Source: Paenibacillus aceti (lineage in GTDB: Bacteria; Bacillota; Bacilli; Paenibacillales; Paenibacillaceae). From it: a stretch of 64,000 nt of DNA. The notes under the pieces were generated by a model. It searched no databases and was not told the origin of the DNA. It saw only the letters and a program-made list of their open reading frames with translations. Shown here one piece after another: positions 35,274 through 42,184 of this stretch; positions within the stretch are counted from its first letter, which is position 1; each line of letters starts with the position of its first letter. The stretch is from assembly GCF_003614185.1 (NCBI RefSeq), contig NZ_KZ987724.1, positions 2,701,733-2,765,732 on the forward strand. Reading direction: 5' to 3'. The position numbers were made by a program, and so were the translations under genes.

Positions 35274-35366
35274 ATTCAGGGAGGCTCGCTTTTGCTCTTT
35301 TCAACAACCTGATCTTTTCGACTTTTCAAAACAATGAACTCAACTATGATGCAAGGAGAGGTTAAA

Positions 35367-36308
35367 TTGAAGTGGCTTACTAATTTTGAAGAAAATTTGG
35401 AGCTTGTCTTTTCGCGGGCGGAATCCATATTGGCGACTTTTCCCGACCTTTTCAGGAATCCTGCACTTCTATACCTGGACAAGTTCCATCCGTTGAAGGA
35501 GAATCGCTCCAAGAACTATATATGTTACCTGCTCCCCTTCTGGCTCAACGAAGAAATCCCCATCAGCCTGACGGAGGTTCAGCGAATTACTACCGCTAAT
35601 ATCATGGGTATGCTGTACTATCACCTAATTGACGAAGCGATGGACAACCCGGCCCAAGTATCTAAACAACAGCTCCCTCTGGCTCAGCTTATCCACTCGG
35701 AACTTATCAGATCCTATAGCGGCCTGTTCCCTGCTTCATCCCCATTCTGGACATATTATGATAAGTATATTAATGAATGGGCCCATGCGGTAACGTATGA
35801 GAATGAACAGGATTTCTTCCATGAGAATCCCGTCCGCATAGGACATAAGGCGGCGCCCGTGAAATTATCGATCGTTGCAGTAATGCTTCTGTCGGGACGT
35901 GAATCGCTTATCTCTCAATTGGAAGACGCTGTCGATCTAGTGCTCGTGACATTGCAATTGCTGGACGATTGGCAGGACTGGGAGAAAGATCTTAGTGAAG
36001 GAAGCTACAATTGTCTCGTGTCCTTGGTACAAGCGGAGCTGAATTTACAGGAGCGTCGGCCTACGGTTGAGGAGATGAAGCAAGGCATCTATGTGAAAGG
36101 ATATTTGCTCAGATATAGCAAAAAGGCGGATGCCAATCACCACGCCCTATTTAATATCAGTTCCAGCTTCCCGCTCCTCTATGAATTTCACGCTTATCTC
36201 TGCAATCAACTAGAAGAGGGGGCTCAGCAAATTGAAAAAGATCGCAACACATTACAGCGTGGCGGCCTCGAATACTTGCTCTCTCAACAAATGACTAAAG
36301 GTAGATAG
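35367..36308 (+). CDS. ComQ-like class I isoprenoid-synthase-fold protein
   Basis: This 313-residue protein has two Asp-rich motifs in the positions expected of trans-prenyl synthases: YHLIDEAMDNP (about residue 87) and LQLLDDWQDWEKD (about residue 201). It is close in size to ComQ, which prenylates a Trp in the ComX pheromone, and shorter on N-terminal motifs than housekeeping farnesyl synthases; overall similarity to either cannot be measured by eye. A TTG at 35367 is preferred because AAGGAGAGG lies upstream. The peptide gene that ends in Trp-Gly-Ser starts 82 bp downstream. A role in peptide prenylation is inferred from this context. Confidence 0.7.
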   Translation: MKWLTNFEENLELVFSRAESILATFPDLFRNPALLYLDKFHPLKENRSKNYICYLLPFWLNEEIPISLTEVQRITTANIMGMLYYHLIDEAMDNPAQVSKQQLPLAQLIHSELIRSYSGLFPASSPFWTYYDKYINEWAHAVTYENEQDFFHENPVRIGHKAAPVKLSIVAVMLLSGRESLISQLEDAVDLVLVTLQLLDDWQDWEKDLSEGSYNCLVSLVQAELNLQERRPTVEEMKQGIYVKGYLLRYSKKADANHHALFNISSSFPLLYEFHAYLCNQLEEGAQQIEKDRNTLQRGGLEYLLSQQMTKGR

Positions 36309-36341
36309 TATCACTAGTTAATAGATTTGCTATATGTTCCA

Positions 36342-36350
36342 TGCTATACT
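36342..36350 (+). promoter_or_regulatory. Extended -10 promoter of the peptide gene
   Basis: TGCTATACT has the TGn extension and a good -10 hexamer, 41 bp before the peptide ATG and 33 bp after the upstream stop codon. No clear -35 was found, as is common for extended -10 promoters. Confidence 0.5.
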
Positions 36351-36390
36351 AAGTAGGAAAATTTAACTATCTGTGAAAGGGTGATTATCT

Positions 36391-36639
36391 ATGACATCAG
36401 GATCCGTTCTTCAAAGTCAGGTAATTCAACGCGCATGGCAAGACCCCGATTTCAAGGCACGATTACTTAGCAACCCGAAAGCAGCTATTCAAGAAGTGCT
36501 TGGTGTGATTCTTCCGGATCATATTAAAGTAACGACCGTTGAAGAGAAGTCTAATGAATTGTATTTCGTTCTGCCACCTGAGCCGGCAGATGTCATGCAA
36601 TCAGATGAAATCAAACCTAACGCAGTCTGGGGATCGTAA
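36391..36639 (+). CDS. NHLP-leader peptide precursor ending in Trp-Gly-Ser
   Basis: This 82-residue peptide contains a nitrile-hydratase-alpha-like leader (NHLP): QVIQRAWQDPDFKARLLSNP, then an ALG-type middle (EVLGVILPDHIKV) and a beta-rich end through ELYFVLPP (residue about 66). A short Asp/Pro/Glu tail follows and ends NAVWGS. NHLP leaders direct modification of ribosomal peptides. The Trp third from the end mirrors the ComX form that ends WGD. The ATG follows AAAGGGTGATTATCT. No Gly-Gly cleavage site or transporter is nearby. Calling the tail a prenylated core is inference. Confidence 0.72.
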   Translation: MTSGSVLQSQVIQRAWQDPDFKARLLSNPKAAIQEVLGVILPDHIKVTTVEEKSNELYFVLPPEPADVMQSDEIKPNAVWGS

Positions 36640-36690: not shown

Positions 36691-38580
36691 TCAAACTTTA
36701 ATTGCTGGGAAGCAAATACGCACCTCGGTTCCAACTCCTTTTGTGCTTGTAAATGAAATTTCCCCCTTCATAATCTCGATAATTCGGAAAGTAACCATCA
36801 GCCCAAGCCCCGTGCCCTTTGTCTTATTCGAGAAATAGGGCTCGCCCAGACGTTCTAGCACTTCGGGTTCCATCCCCTCACCGTCATCCTTTACATAAAT
36901 AAATACCTTTCCATTCTCCCCATGGGCCCAAATCTCAATCTCCCCTTCTCCTTCCAGCGCCTCGATACTGTTCTTGATAATATTGATGAAGGCTTGCTTG
37001 AATTTCGAAGAACTCCCCTTAATATATAGGTCACTTGGAATATGAACTGTGATCTTCCCACCTTGCAAATTCACCAATGGCATGAGGATCCCTTCGATAT
37101 GAATAAACTCCTCCAATACGTTAAGAGTCGTAACCTTTCCGACTTCTGGTTTAGCAAAGGTCAGAAAATCAGTGATAATAGTAGCTGCTCGATCCAATTC
37201 ATCCAAGGCCAGATTCAAATACAATTGATTTGAGGTCGTTTTCTTCTCGACTAGTAACTGTAGGAACCCACGTGTTACTTGTAGAGGATTACGCACCTCA
37301 TGCGCAACAGAGGCTGCCAACTCACTTATGATCTCCATTTTCTCGGAGCGTTGTAATTCATTATTGAACATCTCTAATTGTCTCGAATACTCTACAACTT
37401 GCTCATGGTTACGAGCAAAACGTTTAGCCATAATAACTATAAGTGATATAAGGAAGCTAACCACTCCCCATTTCCACAAGAACAAATCATAATATTCTCC
37501 TCGGAAATAGAACCAAAACAACTCACCGAGCCCCAAAACAGAGAAAATCGCAAATCCAAATGAGAAAATAAGAGCTTCTTTACTCCCTTTAATCGAGTAT
37601 GAAATTGCAGTAACGATTAAAAGAATAAATTGCACCATCATTATGAGACCAAGTAACGTTGCCGAAGCAAACCTATAAAGATAATAAATATGATTATTGA
37701 CATTTGAATTAATCACCATTAAAACTATACAGACCAATGAGTAGACTACCTGGAAATTTCGAAATTTATGAATAATCGACCGATAGCCACTCCCTATAAC
37801 CTTTTCAAAGAAATAAGTAAACGAAGGCAATAATAGGAACAAGGATAAATCAAATAAAGCCACATATATACTGCCGTACTCGCCGTATATCGAATATATG
37901 AATGAAGAATATGTAATTATAATAATACCTGAAGATAGAATAACTAAGCATAGTGCTATCCAACTAGATGCGTAATCCGAATTAAGAAAAATAGCGCAAA
38001 TAAACATAGTAAATGCGATGAACAATAGGCTACTGCCAATTATAAAGTCGGTTAAACTATTCTTGACATACATATTATGTAAATCATGATAATTACCTAC
38101 ATAGATTTCACTTTGGATACCTATTCTGAACGGTGATTTAATACCAAGGTATATTGGTTCTCTATTATTGATCGAATCAAATGGCAATAGTATGACATTA
38201 ATACCATAGTTATACTCTCTATGAGATTCATAGATATTCTGGTTACCCTGTTTGATGATAATATCATCACCATAAATCTTCTTGAAAAGTAATGCGTTCG
38301 CTCCAGAACTTGCTGATGCCTCTATCTTGACCCATTGAGAAACAGCATCAGCAGGTCTCTCTATGGCCCTATCATCCGCCCTTACATGGAACCACCCCTT
38401 CTCATTCTCAAGTTGCTCCATAGTCATTTTCGGATCGAAATGATCCATCCATAGAATCTGCCACTCATCAATCGTCTGCTCTGCACTATTTTTATTATTT
38501 TTGCTTTCTATGAAGAAGACACCGAAGGTTGCCACCAACACAACAAAAACAGTAGCTAAAACTCTTACAAAACCTTTCAT
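36691..38580 (-). CDS. Membrane sensor histidine kinase
   Basis: This 629-residue kinase has an N-terminal helix (about residues 4-23), an extracellular domain of about 140 residues, seven or so membrane helices, a coiled linker, a HisKA domain with the phospho-acceptor in VAHEVRNPLQ, and a HATPase domain (IIKNSIEAL, DDGEGM, GTGLGLMV). The membrane layout resembles 7TMR-DISM sensors. The ATG at 38580 follows GAGGTGCTGGG. It converges on the peptide gene, 51 bp away. No response regulator is adjacent. A receptor role for the peptide is possible but unproven. Confidence 0.88.
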   Translation of the reverse strand: MKGFVRVLATVFVVLVATFGVFFIESKNNKNSAEQTIDEWQILWMDHFDPKMTMEQLENEKGWFHVRADDRAIERPADAVSQWVKIEASASSGANALLFKKIYGDDIIIKQGNQNIYESHREYNYGINVILLPFDSINNREPIYLGIKSPFRIGIQSEIYVGNYHDLHNMYVKNSLTDFIIGSSLLFIAFTMFICAIFLNSDYASSWIALCLVILSSGIIIITYSSFIYSIYGEYGSIYVALFDLSLFLLLPSFTYFFEKVIGSGYRSIIHKFRNFQVVYSLVCIVLMVINSNVNNHIYYLYRFASATLLGLIMMVQFILLIVTAISYSIKGSKEALIFSFGFAIFSVLGLGELFWFYFRGEYYDLFLWKWGVVSFLISLIVIMAKRFARNHEQVVEYSRQLEMFNNELQRSEKMEIISELAASVAHEVRNPLQVTRGFLQLLVEKKTTSNQLYLNLALDELDRAATIITDFLTFAKPEVGKVTTLNVLEEFIHIEGILMPLVNLQGGKITVHIPSDLYIKGSSSKFKQAFINIIKNSIEALEGEGEIEIWAHGENGKVFIYVKDDGEGMEPEVLERLGEPYFSNKTKGTGLGLMVTFRIIEIMKGEISFTSTKGVGTEVRICFPAIKV

Positions 38581-38687
38581 CCCAGCACCTCTACTACTAA
38601 ATTCACTAGCTACCATGTCACAATATAGAATTCGATACTTTTCACGCCAAACCTTCTATTATCTGGGGAAATATAAGTATTAAATCT

Positions 38688-39133: not shown

Positions 39134-42100
39134 TTATCGATCCGAGATGTGTACAATCAGTCCATCTTCGCCTACCCCTAACAAGTTTCTTCCTGTCCAG
39201 ATCATATCTTTTAATACATATACTTCATCAGGAAGTTTATAAAACACCCAATCGGTTAAATCCTTCGAGACGGCAAGAACGCTTCTGGTATAATATCGAT
39301 AGTCTTTACCTGTCCACAAGATTCGTCCATTCACCACGGAAGCTTGATCATACCGATCGCTAACATATTCACTATAATCGCCTTTGATCACCGACCATGT
39401 AATCCCATCTGTCGAGGTATAAATATGGTCTGACAATAGGGTGAATCTGTTGTTGACCCACTGCACATGCATGAAGGCTTGTGCATAATTCTCACTTCCG
39501 TCATTCGGATCGGGATTCCATTTCGGACTATCTTTCCCTAATGTGAAGGTCTGTGTCTTCCAATCCTTCAAATTCGTACTTCGCACAATAACTGCTTGCT
39601 TATTGTTCGTACCTACAGCTAGCACTATGCCACCATGTGCAGCAAGGTCATACAGTTGCCCCCTCCATTCCAGTGCCCTTTTCCACGATTGACCGTCTGT
39701 CGAGGTATATAAGATCGTCTTGGATTGCTTTCCCTGATTCGTGAAGGTGTTCGCTGAAGCCAGAAATTGTTTTCCAGTCCAGATCACTTTAGTAAACTGA
39801 TTGTCTGTTAAAGGCTTGCCGGTCTTCTTCCAGGTTACCCCGTCCTTTGATATCCAAGTGAGTTCTCCACCTACCGCAACATACGTTGTACCACTCCATG
39901 CGACAGACTTAAGTTCACGACTCGCACTATAATCTGAGTAATCGATCTGCAATAGACTTTTCCATTGTTGCCCATCGTTGCTTGTCAATATTGCTGGACT
40001 TATCTCTGTCCCTACGGCCATATATCTATTATTAAATTTCTGCACCTCATACAAGGAGGCTTCAAAGGAAGCCGATCGTTTGATTTTCCAATTCAGTCCA
40101 TCCTGTGAGGTGGCTATAATTCCAGACTCTGTAATACCTACGAAAGTCTGCCCTGACTTTACCACATTCATTCGAACCGGAATATTACTGATCTTCTGTT
40201 GTTTCCAGTGTACTTGATCGGTGGAGACTTGGACATTCGCTTCCCCACGTACTGAACTTGTATAGACTAGATACTGTCTTCCATTCCAAAAGATTTGGCT
40301 ATGTATATCTTCTTTATAGAATACACTAGGGCTTTTCTTCAGGTTAAAGGTGATCCCATCTTGTGAAGTCAGCATATTATCATACATATCCAGGAGCACA
40401 ATAACCCCGTTCTTATCAACTTCCCACACTTGATAATAGTAATTCTTCACAGGGATTACATTAAAACCCGCATGAGGCGCTGCTCTTTTGGCACCGGATT
40501 GATGCGTCCATGAAGTGAGGTTATCTGAGGTATATACAATGATTTCTCCATATTTTCCTTTATCATGCGGGCTTGATTGAAATTGATTCTTCCCCGTTTT
40601 CTTATGAATTTCATATCCACCACCAAACGCAGTATACCGTTTACCATTCCATACGATTTCTTGCATTGTATCTTTAACGGTTCCTGCAAGTTGCCACGAA
40701 GCTCCATTCATCGAGGTATACACCTTCGTCTCGAAGTCTGTACTCAACAAAGCAATAAACTGCTTATTCGTCCAACTAATATTTGTGATTGATAAATGCT
40801 TCTCATCCGCTACTGTAATGACTTGTTTGGTCCATACCCGCCCATCCTTGGACGTATATACCTCAGTAGAGTCGACATTTGACCACAAATAGAATCGATC
40901 ATGCACATAGGAAAGCTGACGAGAATACGAAACGAAAGGGAGTTGTTCGTTCTCCCATGTTTGTCCATAATTATGGGATACAATTAATTTCTTCTCTCCT
41001 ACTATAACGATATTACCTTGGTTATCACTCGCTTGAGTGGACAAGGCACTCCCCTTTTTTCCACTATACTGGAGTGTAAATCGATCTTCAAAATCGTGAA
41101 GAGGTGGGGGGAATCGAATAACCGTCGGAGTACTTATTGATACCTGATCACAAAAAGAAATAAAACAATCTTCGAAACTGCCCCACGCCTTTACCGTACC
41201 GTCGCTAAAAATAGCAAATGTCTCGTCTAAACTTGATGAACTAACTAATTGTCCAACATGATCCAGCTGCTGAATAAGAACAGGAATTGAAGAATGTTTT
41301 TTGGTTCCATCGCCAAGTTGATAGAGTTGGTTTAAACCCCAAGCCCATACGGAGCCATCTTCTTTAATCACCGCAAAGTGCTGATTGCCAGCCATGATAT
41401 CCTTAACCTGATGAAGATTCTCCATATGTAATGGGGTGTCTAGATATTCAGGGGAACTGGATAAACCATCCAGTGGCAATTCCCCACTTGTATGAAAACC
41501 CCATCCCCATACTTCCCCATCCTGTGTTAATGCGTAGGTAGTTGAACCAGTGTTTCCTACCACTACTTTCTTAATATTCGTGAGACCCTCGATTTGTTCG
41601 GGTACATCTCCTTTTCCATAAGGATAGAGATCCCACACGGTTCCATCTGTTTTTACCACATAAGTATCATCGAATTGGACAACATCTTGGGCTCGAATTC
41701 CCTCAATTCTTACCATTTCAGATGATTCATACGGTGAGAATCTCCATACGGTTCCCTCTGCGGTCATCGCATAGGATAAGCTGCCATTCGCATGTATGGA
41801 AGTGACATCTTGTAGCCCCGGTATTTGTTCAAAAAGTTTCTCTTGTTTCTCCGTATTGCTATGTTTCCATACTGTACCATCCTTTAGAAGGACAAGTAGA
41901 TGCCCACTATCCGTCTTCAAATCCTGAATGGGCTGGTCTCGGAAAAATTTCAGTACATTTGGCCTGTATCCAGCGCTATAACGAACTATTGACCAGATGC
42001 GGTTCTCTGAATCTAGTGCATACACTGCATTAGTTGCTGCGGTCATCTTTTTGATTTTCACCTGTTTATTGGATGACGAAGCTGCCCCCTCAGCAGCAAT

Positions 42101-42184
42101 GGATGGCGAATTAGCAAGGAATGTAGTGAGAAATACTACACAGCTAAGCACCCCAATTAAAACTCTTCTTGTACAATTCAGCAT
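39134..42184 (-). CDS. Secreted RCC1-like and sialidase-like repeat protein
   Basis: This 1016-residue protein starts with a signal peptide (hydrophobic residues about 9-30, Ala-rich cleavage region). Residues about 40-350 hold RCC1-type repeats (units such as DGSVWAWGLNQLYQLGDGT). The rest consists of many BNR/sialidase-like units of the form TSxDGxxW, such as YTSTDGQSWKRAL. No catalytic sialidase residues were recognised. The ATG follows AGGAGGAAAT. It is probably a cell-surface or secreted beta-propeller binding protein. Base composition is lower in GC than the core genes. Confidence 0.85.
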   Translation of the reverse strand: MLNCTRRVLIGVLSCVVFLTTFLANSPSIAAEGAASSSNKQVKIKKMTAATNAVYALDSENRIWSIVRYSAGYRPNVLKFFRDQPIQDLKTDSGHLLVLLKDGTVWKHSNTEKQEKLFEQIPGLQDVTSIHANGSLSYAMTAEGTVWRFSPYESSEMVRIEGIRAQDVVQFDDTYVVKTDGTVWDLYPYGKGDVPEQIEGLTNIKKVVVGNTGSTTYALTQDGEVWGWGFHTSGELPLDGLSSSPEYLDTPLHMENLHQVKDIMAGNQHFAVIKEDGSVWAWGLNQLYQLGDGTKKHSSIPVLIQQLDHVGQLVSSSSLDETFAIFSDGTVKAWGSFEDCFISFCDQVSISTPTVIRFPPPLHDFEDRFTLQYSGKKGSALSTQASDNQGNIVIVGEKKLIVSHNYGQTWENEQLPFVSYSRQLSYVHDRFYLWSNVDSTEVYTSKDGRVWTKQVITVADEKHLSITNISWTNKQFIALLSTDFETKVYTSMNGASWQLAGTVKDTMQEIVWNGKRYTAFGGGYEIHKKTGKNQFQSSPHDKGKYGEIIVYTSDNLTSWTHQSGAKRAAPHAGFNVIPVKNYYYQVWEVDKNGVIVLLDMYDNMLTSQDGITFNLKKSPSVFYKEDIHSQIFWNGRQYLVYTSSVRGEANVQVSTDQVHWKQQKISNIPVRMNVVKSGQTFVGITESGIIATSQDGLNWKIKRSASFEASLYEVQKFNNRYMAVGTEISPAILTSNDGQQWKSLLQIDYSDYSASRELKSVAWSGTTYVAVGGELTWISKDGVTWKKTGKPLTDNQFTKVIWTGKQFLASANTFTNQGKQSKTILYTSTDGQSWKRALEWRGQLYDLAAHGGIVLAVGTNNKQAVIVRSTNLKDWKTQTFTLGKDSPKWNPDPNDGSENYAQAFMHVQWVNNRFTLLSDHIYTSTDGITWSVIKGDYSEYVSDRYDQASVVNGRILWTGKDYRYYTRSVLAVSKDLTDWVFYKLPDEVYVLKDMIWTGRNLLGVGEDGLIVHISDR

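Follow-up and report, generated by a model that had tools for sequence, protein, structure and literature searches.

The locus analysed here has its closest described relative in Paenibacillus alvei, in the PalQ-PalX-PalP cluster reported by Miyata, Ito and Fujinami (2023; PMC10853753). PalQ, published as a member of the isoprenoid-synthase superfamily, acts in vitro on the NHLP peptide PalX, whose C-terminal Trp it prenylates at C3, and this C3 prenylation, with formation of a pyrroloindole, is shown for the P. alvei pair only; PalX is reported to be cut between T72 and D73, giving the core DNVRRFFW (PMC10853753). PalQ becomes inactive once an Ala is added after the Trp (PMC10853753), a result repeated in a 2026 review, which adds that activity on a Trp placed internally between Gly residues is low (PMC13290415), and in published models of the enzyme Q197 is a Trp-contacting residue (PMC10853753; PMC13290415). 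In the accessible text of the 2023 paper PalQ is presented as a biocatalyst, without a biological role, and PalP is named once, without a stated role (PMC10853753); the term 'histidine kinase' does not occur in the accessible text of PMC13290415, and no statement that PalP senses PalX was found in the openly accessible full-text literature. The pairing of such an enzyme with an NHLP peptide, for which the original prediction could name no described system, has accordingly been in print since 2023 (PMC10853753), and the new elements at the present locus are that the Trp is internal and that there is evidence for pairing with a receptor.

Prenylated Trp residues also occur in other systems. In the ComQXPA quorum-sensing systems both ComX and the N-terminal part of ComP are variable, and pherotype groups exist without cross-talk, while a census of com-like loci, within its accessible text, includes unusual ones, among them one in Paenibacillus curdlanolyticus, that share only the Trp with ComX (PMC4008528). 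The RiPP Trp prenyltransferases of the ChrPC and MppC type likewise prenylate a Trp of a ribosomal peptide, an internal one in the case of ChrPC, but, as far as the available sources describe them, they differ from the present locus in precursor and cluster type, MppE being a Nif11-like lanthipeptide precursor and ChrPC carrying an added cyclase domain.

The window, that is, the whole stretch of 64,000 nucleotides of Paenibacillus aceti DNA that was analysed, holds the following features.

35353..35361, plus strand: AAGGAGAGG, likely ribosome-binding site of the palQ-like gene, read from the sequence.
35367..36308, plus strand: candidate palQ-like Trp prenyltransferase, 313 aa, TTG start, assigned from the directly read ORF, six PalQ residues, the family alignment and homologues.
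36376..36384, plus strand: AAAGGGTGA, likely ribosome-binding site of the palX-like gene, read from the sequence.
36391..36639, plus strand: palX-like NHLP-leader precursor peptide, 82 aa, ending NAVWGS, with TIGR03793 over its cut-off.
36607..36636, plus strand: predicted core, approximately EIKPNAVWGS (or with one residue more when counting starts at the leader), placed from the P. alvei cut.
36628..36630, plus strand: codon of Trp80, the expected prenylation site, with the Trp conserved across loci and genus.
36631..36636, plus strand: Gly-Ser tail after Trp80, of a kind found in the window's clade and hypervariable.
36691..38616, minus strand: palP-like histidine kinase, convergent with palX, 641 aa, HisKA and HATPase_c.
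37387..38616, minus strand: PalP sensor half, residues 1-410, with one TM, an outer domain of about 160 aa and about seven TM.

The 313-aa protein with two Asp motifs and the 82-aa peptide that begins 82 bp beyond its stop codon, both as originally described, are read directly from the DNA. The TTG start at 35367 stands 5 bases after AAGGAGAGG, an alternative in-frame ATG lies at 35334, and predicted promoters and terminators show no clear excess over shuffled sequences (3 versus a mean of 4.1, and 3 versus 1.7, sd 1.3, respectively). The Asp motifs read D89EAMD93 (FARM) and D200DWQD204 (SARM), and K39, D89, D93, Q197, D200 and D204 occupy the same numbers as in published PalQ (6/6 checked); the four Asp residues named, together with Q197 before the SARM, are invariant in 42 aligned homologues. 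A bridge to the P. alvei cluster is provided by locus L069, in which the same six residues stand at the published PalQ numbers and the enzyme aligns over its full length with that of the window (36% identity), and in which the peptide reads DNVRRF immediately after T72, where the P. alvei core DNVRRFFW starts, before the frame departs. Because of this core match, the shared residues and their invariance among the 42 homologues, membership of the window locus in the PalQ-PalX-PalP family is firm in all respects except the terminal Trp: the Q motifs, the adjoining NHLP precursor, the conserved Trp and the histidine kinase in the cluster are all found, so that the same three genes are present, but the Trp, which is last in P. 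alvei PalX, is third from the end in the window peptide (WGS). The boundary of the core was placed by eye, by setting the P. alvei cut against L069 and the genus profile, and since P. alvei PalX is cut between T72 and D73, the core is predicted to be EIKPNAVWGS or one residue more. Its calculated MH+ would be 1236.70 with a geranyl or 1304.76 with a farnesyl group, and 1351.73 or 1419.79, respectively, for DEIKPNAVWGS.

The enzyme has no close standing among the profile families. Profile searches gave no Pfam or NCBIfam match above cut-off, and PF00348 (polyprenyl_synt) did not match the window enzyme at E values up to 1; among the 42 homologues PF00348 is found in one (E 0.003) and DUF5685, weakly, in 12 (best E 4.9e-05). 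A PDB profile search returned a weak match to polyprenyl synthetase (E 0.2), and hhalign against PF00348 proteins gave a probability of 0.2%, with both Asp motifs aligned in order, so the link of the enzyme to the trans-prenyl synthase fold is not significant at the level of profiles. Squalene/phytoene synthase was considered as a nearer home and rejected, PF00494 being absent from the same genome and the profile match to the PF00494 proteins of three relatives spanning 28 columns only; no match of any kind places the enzyme among squalene or carotenoid synthases, an assignment that the original prediction had itself named as fatal.

Homologues of the enzyme are widespread, occurring in 327 of 395 genomes of the family and 193 of 296 genomes drawn from the order, and a sample of the class gave 37 matches in 398 genomes, all 37 within the host's own order. 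From the family, order and named genomes 213 distinct Q proteins were gathered, and at 203 of these 213 loci an NHLP ORF lies 3' of the Q gene on the same strand. The pairing of enzyme and peptide is far beyond chance, and the claim that the two belong together holds. Gene neighbours were counted in the best 80 of 243 relatives in named genomes, with flanks of up to 4.5 kb: Q is present in 80/80, the NHLP ORF in 79/80 and a convergent downstream kinase in 78/80 (101 kinase copies downstream and a further 4 upstream on the same strand as those), and the next most frequent gene family, the families being unannotated, occurs in 20/80. In these 80 loci only enzyme, peptide and kinase recur broadly. 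Across the 213 distinct loci a convergent kinase is found in 202, a count limited by flank length, and at L169, L171 and L193 a second X lies beside a second kinase. The kinase at 36691-38616, which the original prediction did not mention, belongs to the unit.

Several other features of these loci deserve mention. Locus L085 (2517-3939) carries five tandem NHLP peptide ORFs behind one Q gene, four of them ending TWV, VWI, NWL and VWF, and is a candidate for an expanded set of signals. A divergent Q branch (L112, L114-L116, L118-L121 and L232-L234) is accompanied by peptides ending CGPWR followed by S, T, D or SF, in which a Cys stands three residues ahead of the Trp. Within the window itself, a 1016-aa, secreted-looking protein with RCC1-type repeats is encoded at 39134-42184 on the minus strand.

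The window peptide scores 66.2 bits against the TIGR03793 leader_NHLP model (cut-off 50.9, E 1.8e-18), which confirms the NHLP assignment, and it is the only TIGR03793 match in its genome. The original prediction had staked itself beforehand on the conservation of the Trp, and at 202 of the 213 distinct loci a Trp is kept at or near the C-terminus of the NHLP peptide (198 by the nearest ORF, that is, 199 less L069, whose frame departs, and L109, L181, L255 and L263 on closer reading). The remaining 11 are L069 and L060, which leave the frame, L107 and L189, which lie at record ends, and seven (L042, L052, L053, L070, L073, L075 and L166) for which no NHLP peptide was found in the examined flank. 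Over the 202 loci the Trp is followed by no residue in 124, one in 49, two in 25, three in 3 and four in 1, so that 78 carry a tail of 1-4 residues. Ten further loci of the window's genus, partly repeats (L265 = L142, L267 = L143), have tails of 0 to 6 residues, two being without a tail. On a tree of 173 Q representatives, built by a quick method with no mixture model and with a long-branch warning for L082 and L088, the state of the tail switches at least 12 times; the window's clade (support 94, not starred) has a tail in 28/28 representatives, and its sister L143 has none. Among the enzyme columns listed none tracks the tail significantly (7 independent pairs, supported branches).

The kinase ends close to the peptide, the two stop codons being 51 bp apart. 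Its kinase half finds its closest solved relative in sporulation kinase B (PDB 3d36, E 1.4e-51; next 1.7e-25), and its sensor half matches no solved chain in the PDB at E values up to 1. Hydropathy over 115 aligned kinases places a single TM at the N-terminus, ahead of the outer domain and the seven-TM part. No second copy of the sensor was found in the genome, residues 1-320 being covered only by the protein itself among 41 matches, and no response regulator was seen among the five window neighbours scanned. Over 48 genomes a PalP-like sensor is present in 19/19 that have Q and in 15/29 that lack it, which rules out a strict tie of PalP to Q; because these 15 Q-less genomes retain a PalP-like sensor, PalP may do something else. 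In the 15 genomes (L285-L299, 12 of them in one genus, g4) neither Q nor X was found within the 10 kb examined around the kinase, and these PalP-like kinases are possible orphan receptors.

Compared with ComQXPA, the window locus has a familiar composition built from different parts. Common to both are a short peptide that bears a Trp close to its C-terminus and a membrane kinase whose sensor varies, and beside the peptide stands an isoprenoid-type enzyme, a putative one at the window locus; one ComX form ends WGD, as do the peptides of the relatives L006, L017 and L128. However, no sequence similarity was found between the enzyme and peptide of the window and those of ComQXPA (PF05952, ComX, does not match the window peptide), the kinase is of the HisKA type as opposed to the HisKA_3 type of ComP, and it is convergent, with no adjacent response regulator seen, whereas ComQXPA comprises four genes on one strand with ComA beside ComP. 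Enzyme, peptide, kinase type and gene order thus rule out ComQXPA membership. The host genome does contain a separate ComQXPA locus outside the window (L427 4195-8583, G000:C1 approximately 4937694-4942082), recognised by matches to polyprenyl_synt (86 bits) and ComX PF05952 (35.2 bits), a HisKA_3 kinase and a GerE response regulator, with a ComQ of 307 aa, a ComX of 62 aa ending RFIPWC and a ComA of 224 aa; its ComP is read in two ORFs (351 and 418 aa), which in L428 and L429 form one ORF of 793 aa. The description of the window enzyme as ComQ-like does not survive at the level of sequence, given the missing polyprenyl_synt match and a BLASTP E value of 1.5 against the ComQ of its own genome. 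Because the ComQXPA locus is separate and this E value is so high, the two systems coexist without a sequence relation at this sensitivity. A YcaO cyclodehydratase gene (L427 1829-3226, 230.7 bits) lies about 1 kb upstream of comQ, and since it adjoins comQ, the quorum-sensing locus may have a thiazole-type RiPP system as its neighbour.

The distribution of variability along the window peptide and its kinase is one of three features that go beyond the accessible part of the published P. alvei account, the other two being the non-terminal Trp and the wide occurrence of enzyme homologues with the recurring trio. In a profile of 37 distinct peptides from 40 loci of the window's genus, the leader hardly varies (mean entropy 0.58 bits over 45 positions counted from the AWxDP motif), the Trp is invariant (0.0 bits) and the tail is hypervariable (2.75 and 2.19 bits at the next two positions). 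The tail co-varies with the PalP sensor, as is illustrated by sister loci with different tails: identity in the outer domain is 0.75 for L129/L132, 0.57 for L138/L146 and 0.55 for L131/L134, and the corresponding values for these three pairs are 0.99, 0.98 and 0.97 in the Mn-efflux-type flank, 0.95, 0.91 and 0.88 in Q, and 0.97, 0.96 and 0.92 in the kinase half. In pairs with the same core, the outer domain retains more identity relative to Q (0.85 versus 0.87 for L140/L141, 0.79 versus 0.75 for L136/L137, 0.74 versus 0.77 for L125/L139). L128/L130, however, has an outer domain at 0.73 with Q at 0.83, and is among the same-core pairs whose sensor has diverged no less than in some different-core pairs.

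For a formal test, 5 of 191 loci were dropped (two without kinase, two without peptide, one with a short Q) and 158 of the remaining 186 were kept after deduplication, giving 59 disjoint sister pairs with Q identities of 0.70-0.985. Once the identities of Q and kinase are allowed for, the 11 pairs with unlike tails show a sensor identity lower by 0.102 than the 48 pairs with like tails (Mann-Whitney p 0.0001, 0/5000 permutations), a result obtained with several measures tried and mostly one genome per species. When the whole core is compared (35 same, 24 different), the difference is 0.048 (p 0.0043, 6/5000), and given Q alone p is 0.11 with permutations at 6/5000; divided by sensor part, given Q and kinase, the core test yields p 0.096 for the outer domain and 0.00055 for the seven-TM part. 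As controls, the kinase given Q gave p 0.35 (172/5000) for the tail and 0.32 (302/5000) for the core, and Q given the kinase gave 0.41 (1441/5000) and 0.075 (226/5000), respectively; judging from these p values and permutation counts the controls lean the same way, more weakly, and one of them, the kinase given Q with tail labels, is not clean at 172/5000. Restricting the analysis to pairs with kinase identity of at least 0.85 gave p 0.009 (core) and 0.0099 (tail), and 200 random disjoint pairings gave median p values of 0.0095 (core) and 0.0001 (tail). Within the window's genus, where the idea of co-variation arose and which is itself part of the test set, p is 0.004 for the tail (14 pairs) and 0.038 for the core; outside it p is 0.045 for the core and 0.46 for the tail, with only 3 differing pairs. 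The co-variation is strongest in the window's genus and weaker outside.

A variable core around a conserved Trp, together with a sensor that diversifies alongside it, is seen here as in ComX-like pheromone systems, less strongly outside the window's genus, and the joint change of tail and sensor suggests that the peptide is a cell-to-cell signal. Because the pattern resembles that of the ComX pherotypes, a prenylated signal sensed by PalP would be its most likely function. We consider it likely, with a probability of roughly 0.7, that the window holds a PalQ-PalX-PalP locus in a variant with a non-terminal Trp, whose prenyl-Trp80 product is exported and sensed by the PalP-like kinase, with a probable link to the phosphorelay. 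The palQ-like enzyme would bind the NHLP leader of the palX-like peptide, would accept its Trp-Gly-Ser end and would use geranyl or farnesyl diphosphate to prenylate the indole C3 of Trp80, with ring closure to a pyrroloindole as in ComX and PalX. The inactivity of P. alvei PalQ on a Trp followed by Ala weighs against this reading, as do the Q-less genomes with a PalP-like sensor and the seven loci that have Q but no peptide in the examined flank. Trp prenylation on an NHLP leader is probably the right chemistry, as originally proposed, having been shown in vitro for P. alvei PalQ and PalX (PMC10853753). A protease would then free the short core, approximately EIKPNAVWGS, and the product would leave the cell to be sensed by the adjoining PalP-like kinase; the kinase half of the latter is KinB-like and probably passes its signal to the sporulation phosphorelay, as conjectured from that similarity.

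The same genes could be read in other ways. The enzyme might be an ordinary synthase of the terpene or carotenoid type with a small-molecule substrate, and the NHLP peptide beside it unrelated or a nitrile-hydratase fragment, which would be in keeping with the isoprenoid-synthase-like Asp motifs, the weak PDB match to polyprenyl synthetase (E 0.2) and a partial match of the peptide to the N-terminal part of nitrile hydratase alpha (PF02979, 38.9 bits over 31 of 184 profile positions, over the Pfam cut-off). NHLP leaders in general also match nitrile hydratase alpha in part, however, and the NHLP model scores this one higher, so the peptide is not better explained as such a fragment, a possibility the original prediction had allowed for. 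The Trp-contacting Q197 is moreover invariant in the 42 homologues, peptide and enzyme co-occur across the order, and the related PalQ acts on PalX (PMC10853753), which together render this explanation very improbable. It is scarcely credible that the peptide is the substrate of a YcaO thiazole/oxazole enzyme elsewhere in the genome and its prenyl-synthase-like neighbour incidental, even though there is a YcaO gene upstream of comQ, the peptide is the sole TIGR03793 peptide available and 145 of 199 cores contain at least one Cys, Ser or Thr; almost every locus has the peptide next to Q, and it is the Trp that is conserved. The candidate of a TOMM/thiazole precursor was rejected, no YcaO being found among the window neighbours scanned, 187 of 199 cores having no Cys and 54 of 199 having no Cys, Ser or Thr. 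The original prediction had named a thiazole-type substrate of enzymes elsewhere as a possible refutation; the YcaO gene does lie elsewhere in the genome, but the conserved residue is Trp and most cores are free of Cys.

NHLP leaders mostly serve RiPP maturation enzymes, which would suit a prenylated antimicrobial or membrane-active peptide, with PalP as a stress or immunity sensor and not a quorum receptor. Geranylation of Trp is described as raising the activity of antimicrobial peptides (PMC13290415), but no further family, for immunity or export, occurs in more than 20 of the best 80 of 243 named loci (families unannotated), and the wide presence in the order and the sensor-tail co-variation fit a signal better; we regard this role as unlikely. 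There is a smaller chance that the chemistry is the same and that a carboxypeptidase first trims Gly-Ser, so that the PalQ-like enzyme meets Trp80 as the terminal residue. In vitro PalQ depends on a Trp at the very end (PMC10853753), and tailed and tailless homologues share one enzyme family with repeated switches on the tree, both of which speak for such trimming. Against it, no protease or other further gene family exceeds 20 of those 80 loci (families unannotated), although a protease elsewhere would suffice, the tail is kept in every representative of the window's clade, and its identity tracks the sensor, which is unexpected if the tail is always discarded.

Under the preferred reading of a PalQ-PalX-PalP locus with an internal prenylated Trp, a broader proposal can be made, tentatively and at somewhat less than even odds: PalQ-PalX-PalP may be a second, independently assembled prenyl-Trp quorum-sensing system, present in most genomes of the family and much of the order, that combines an NHLP leader with a KinB-like kinase, the latter bearing a seven-TM sensor, and runs into the sporulation phosphorelay, its pherotypes being set by the residues around and after the Trp, and in the window's genus the enzyme may have shifted to a Trp short of the C-terminus, in convergence with ComX. 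Paenibacillus relatives very commonly carry homologues, and the co-variation of tail and sensor turns the question of their role into a direct test, namely whether a prenylated core switches PalP. Among the naturally tailed loci there may also be enzymes able to prenylate a Trp inside the chain, a reaction that PalQ scarcely performs. If the proposal is true, prenyl-Trp pheromones would have arisen on two unrelated precursors, and some bacteria, including the host of the window, would carry both.
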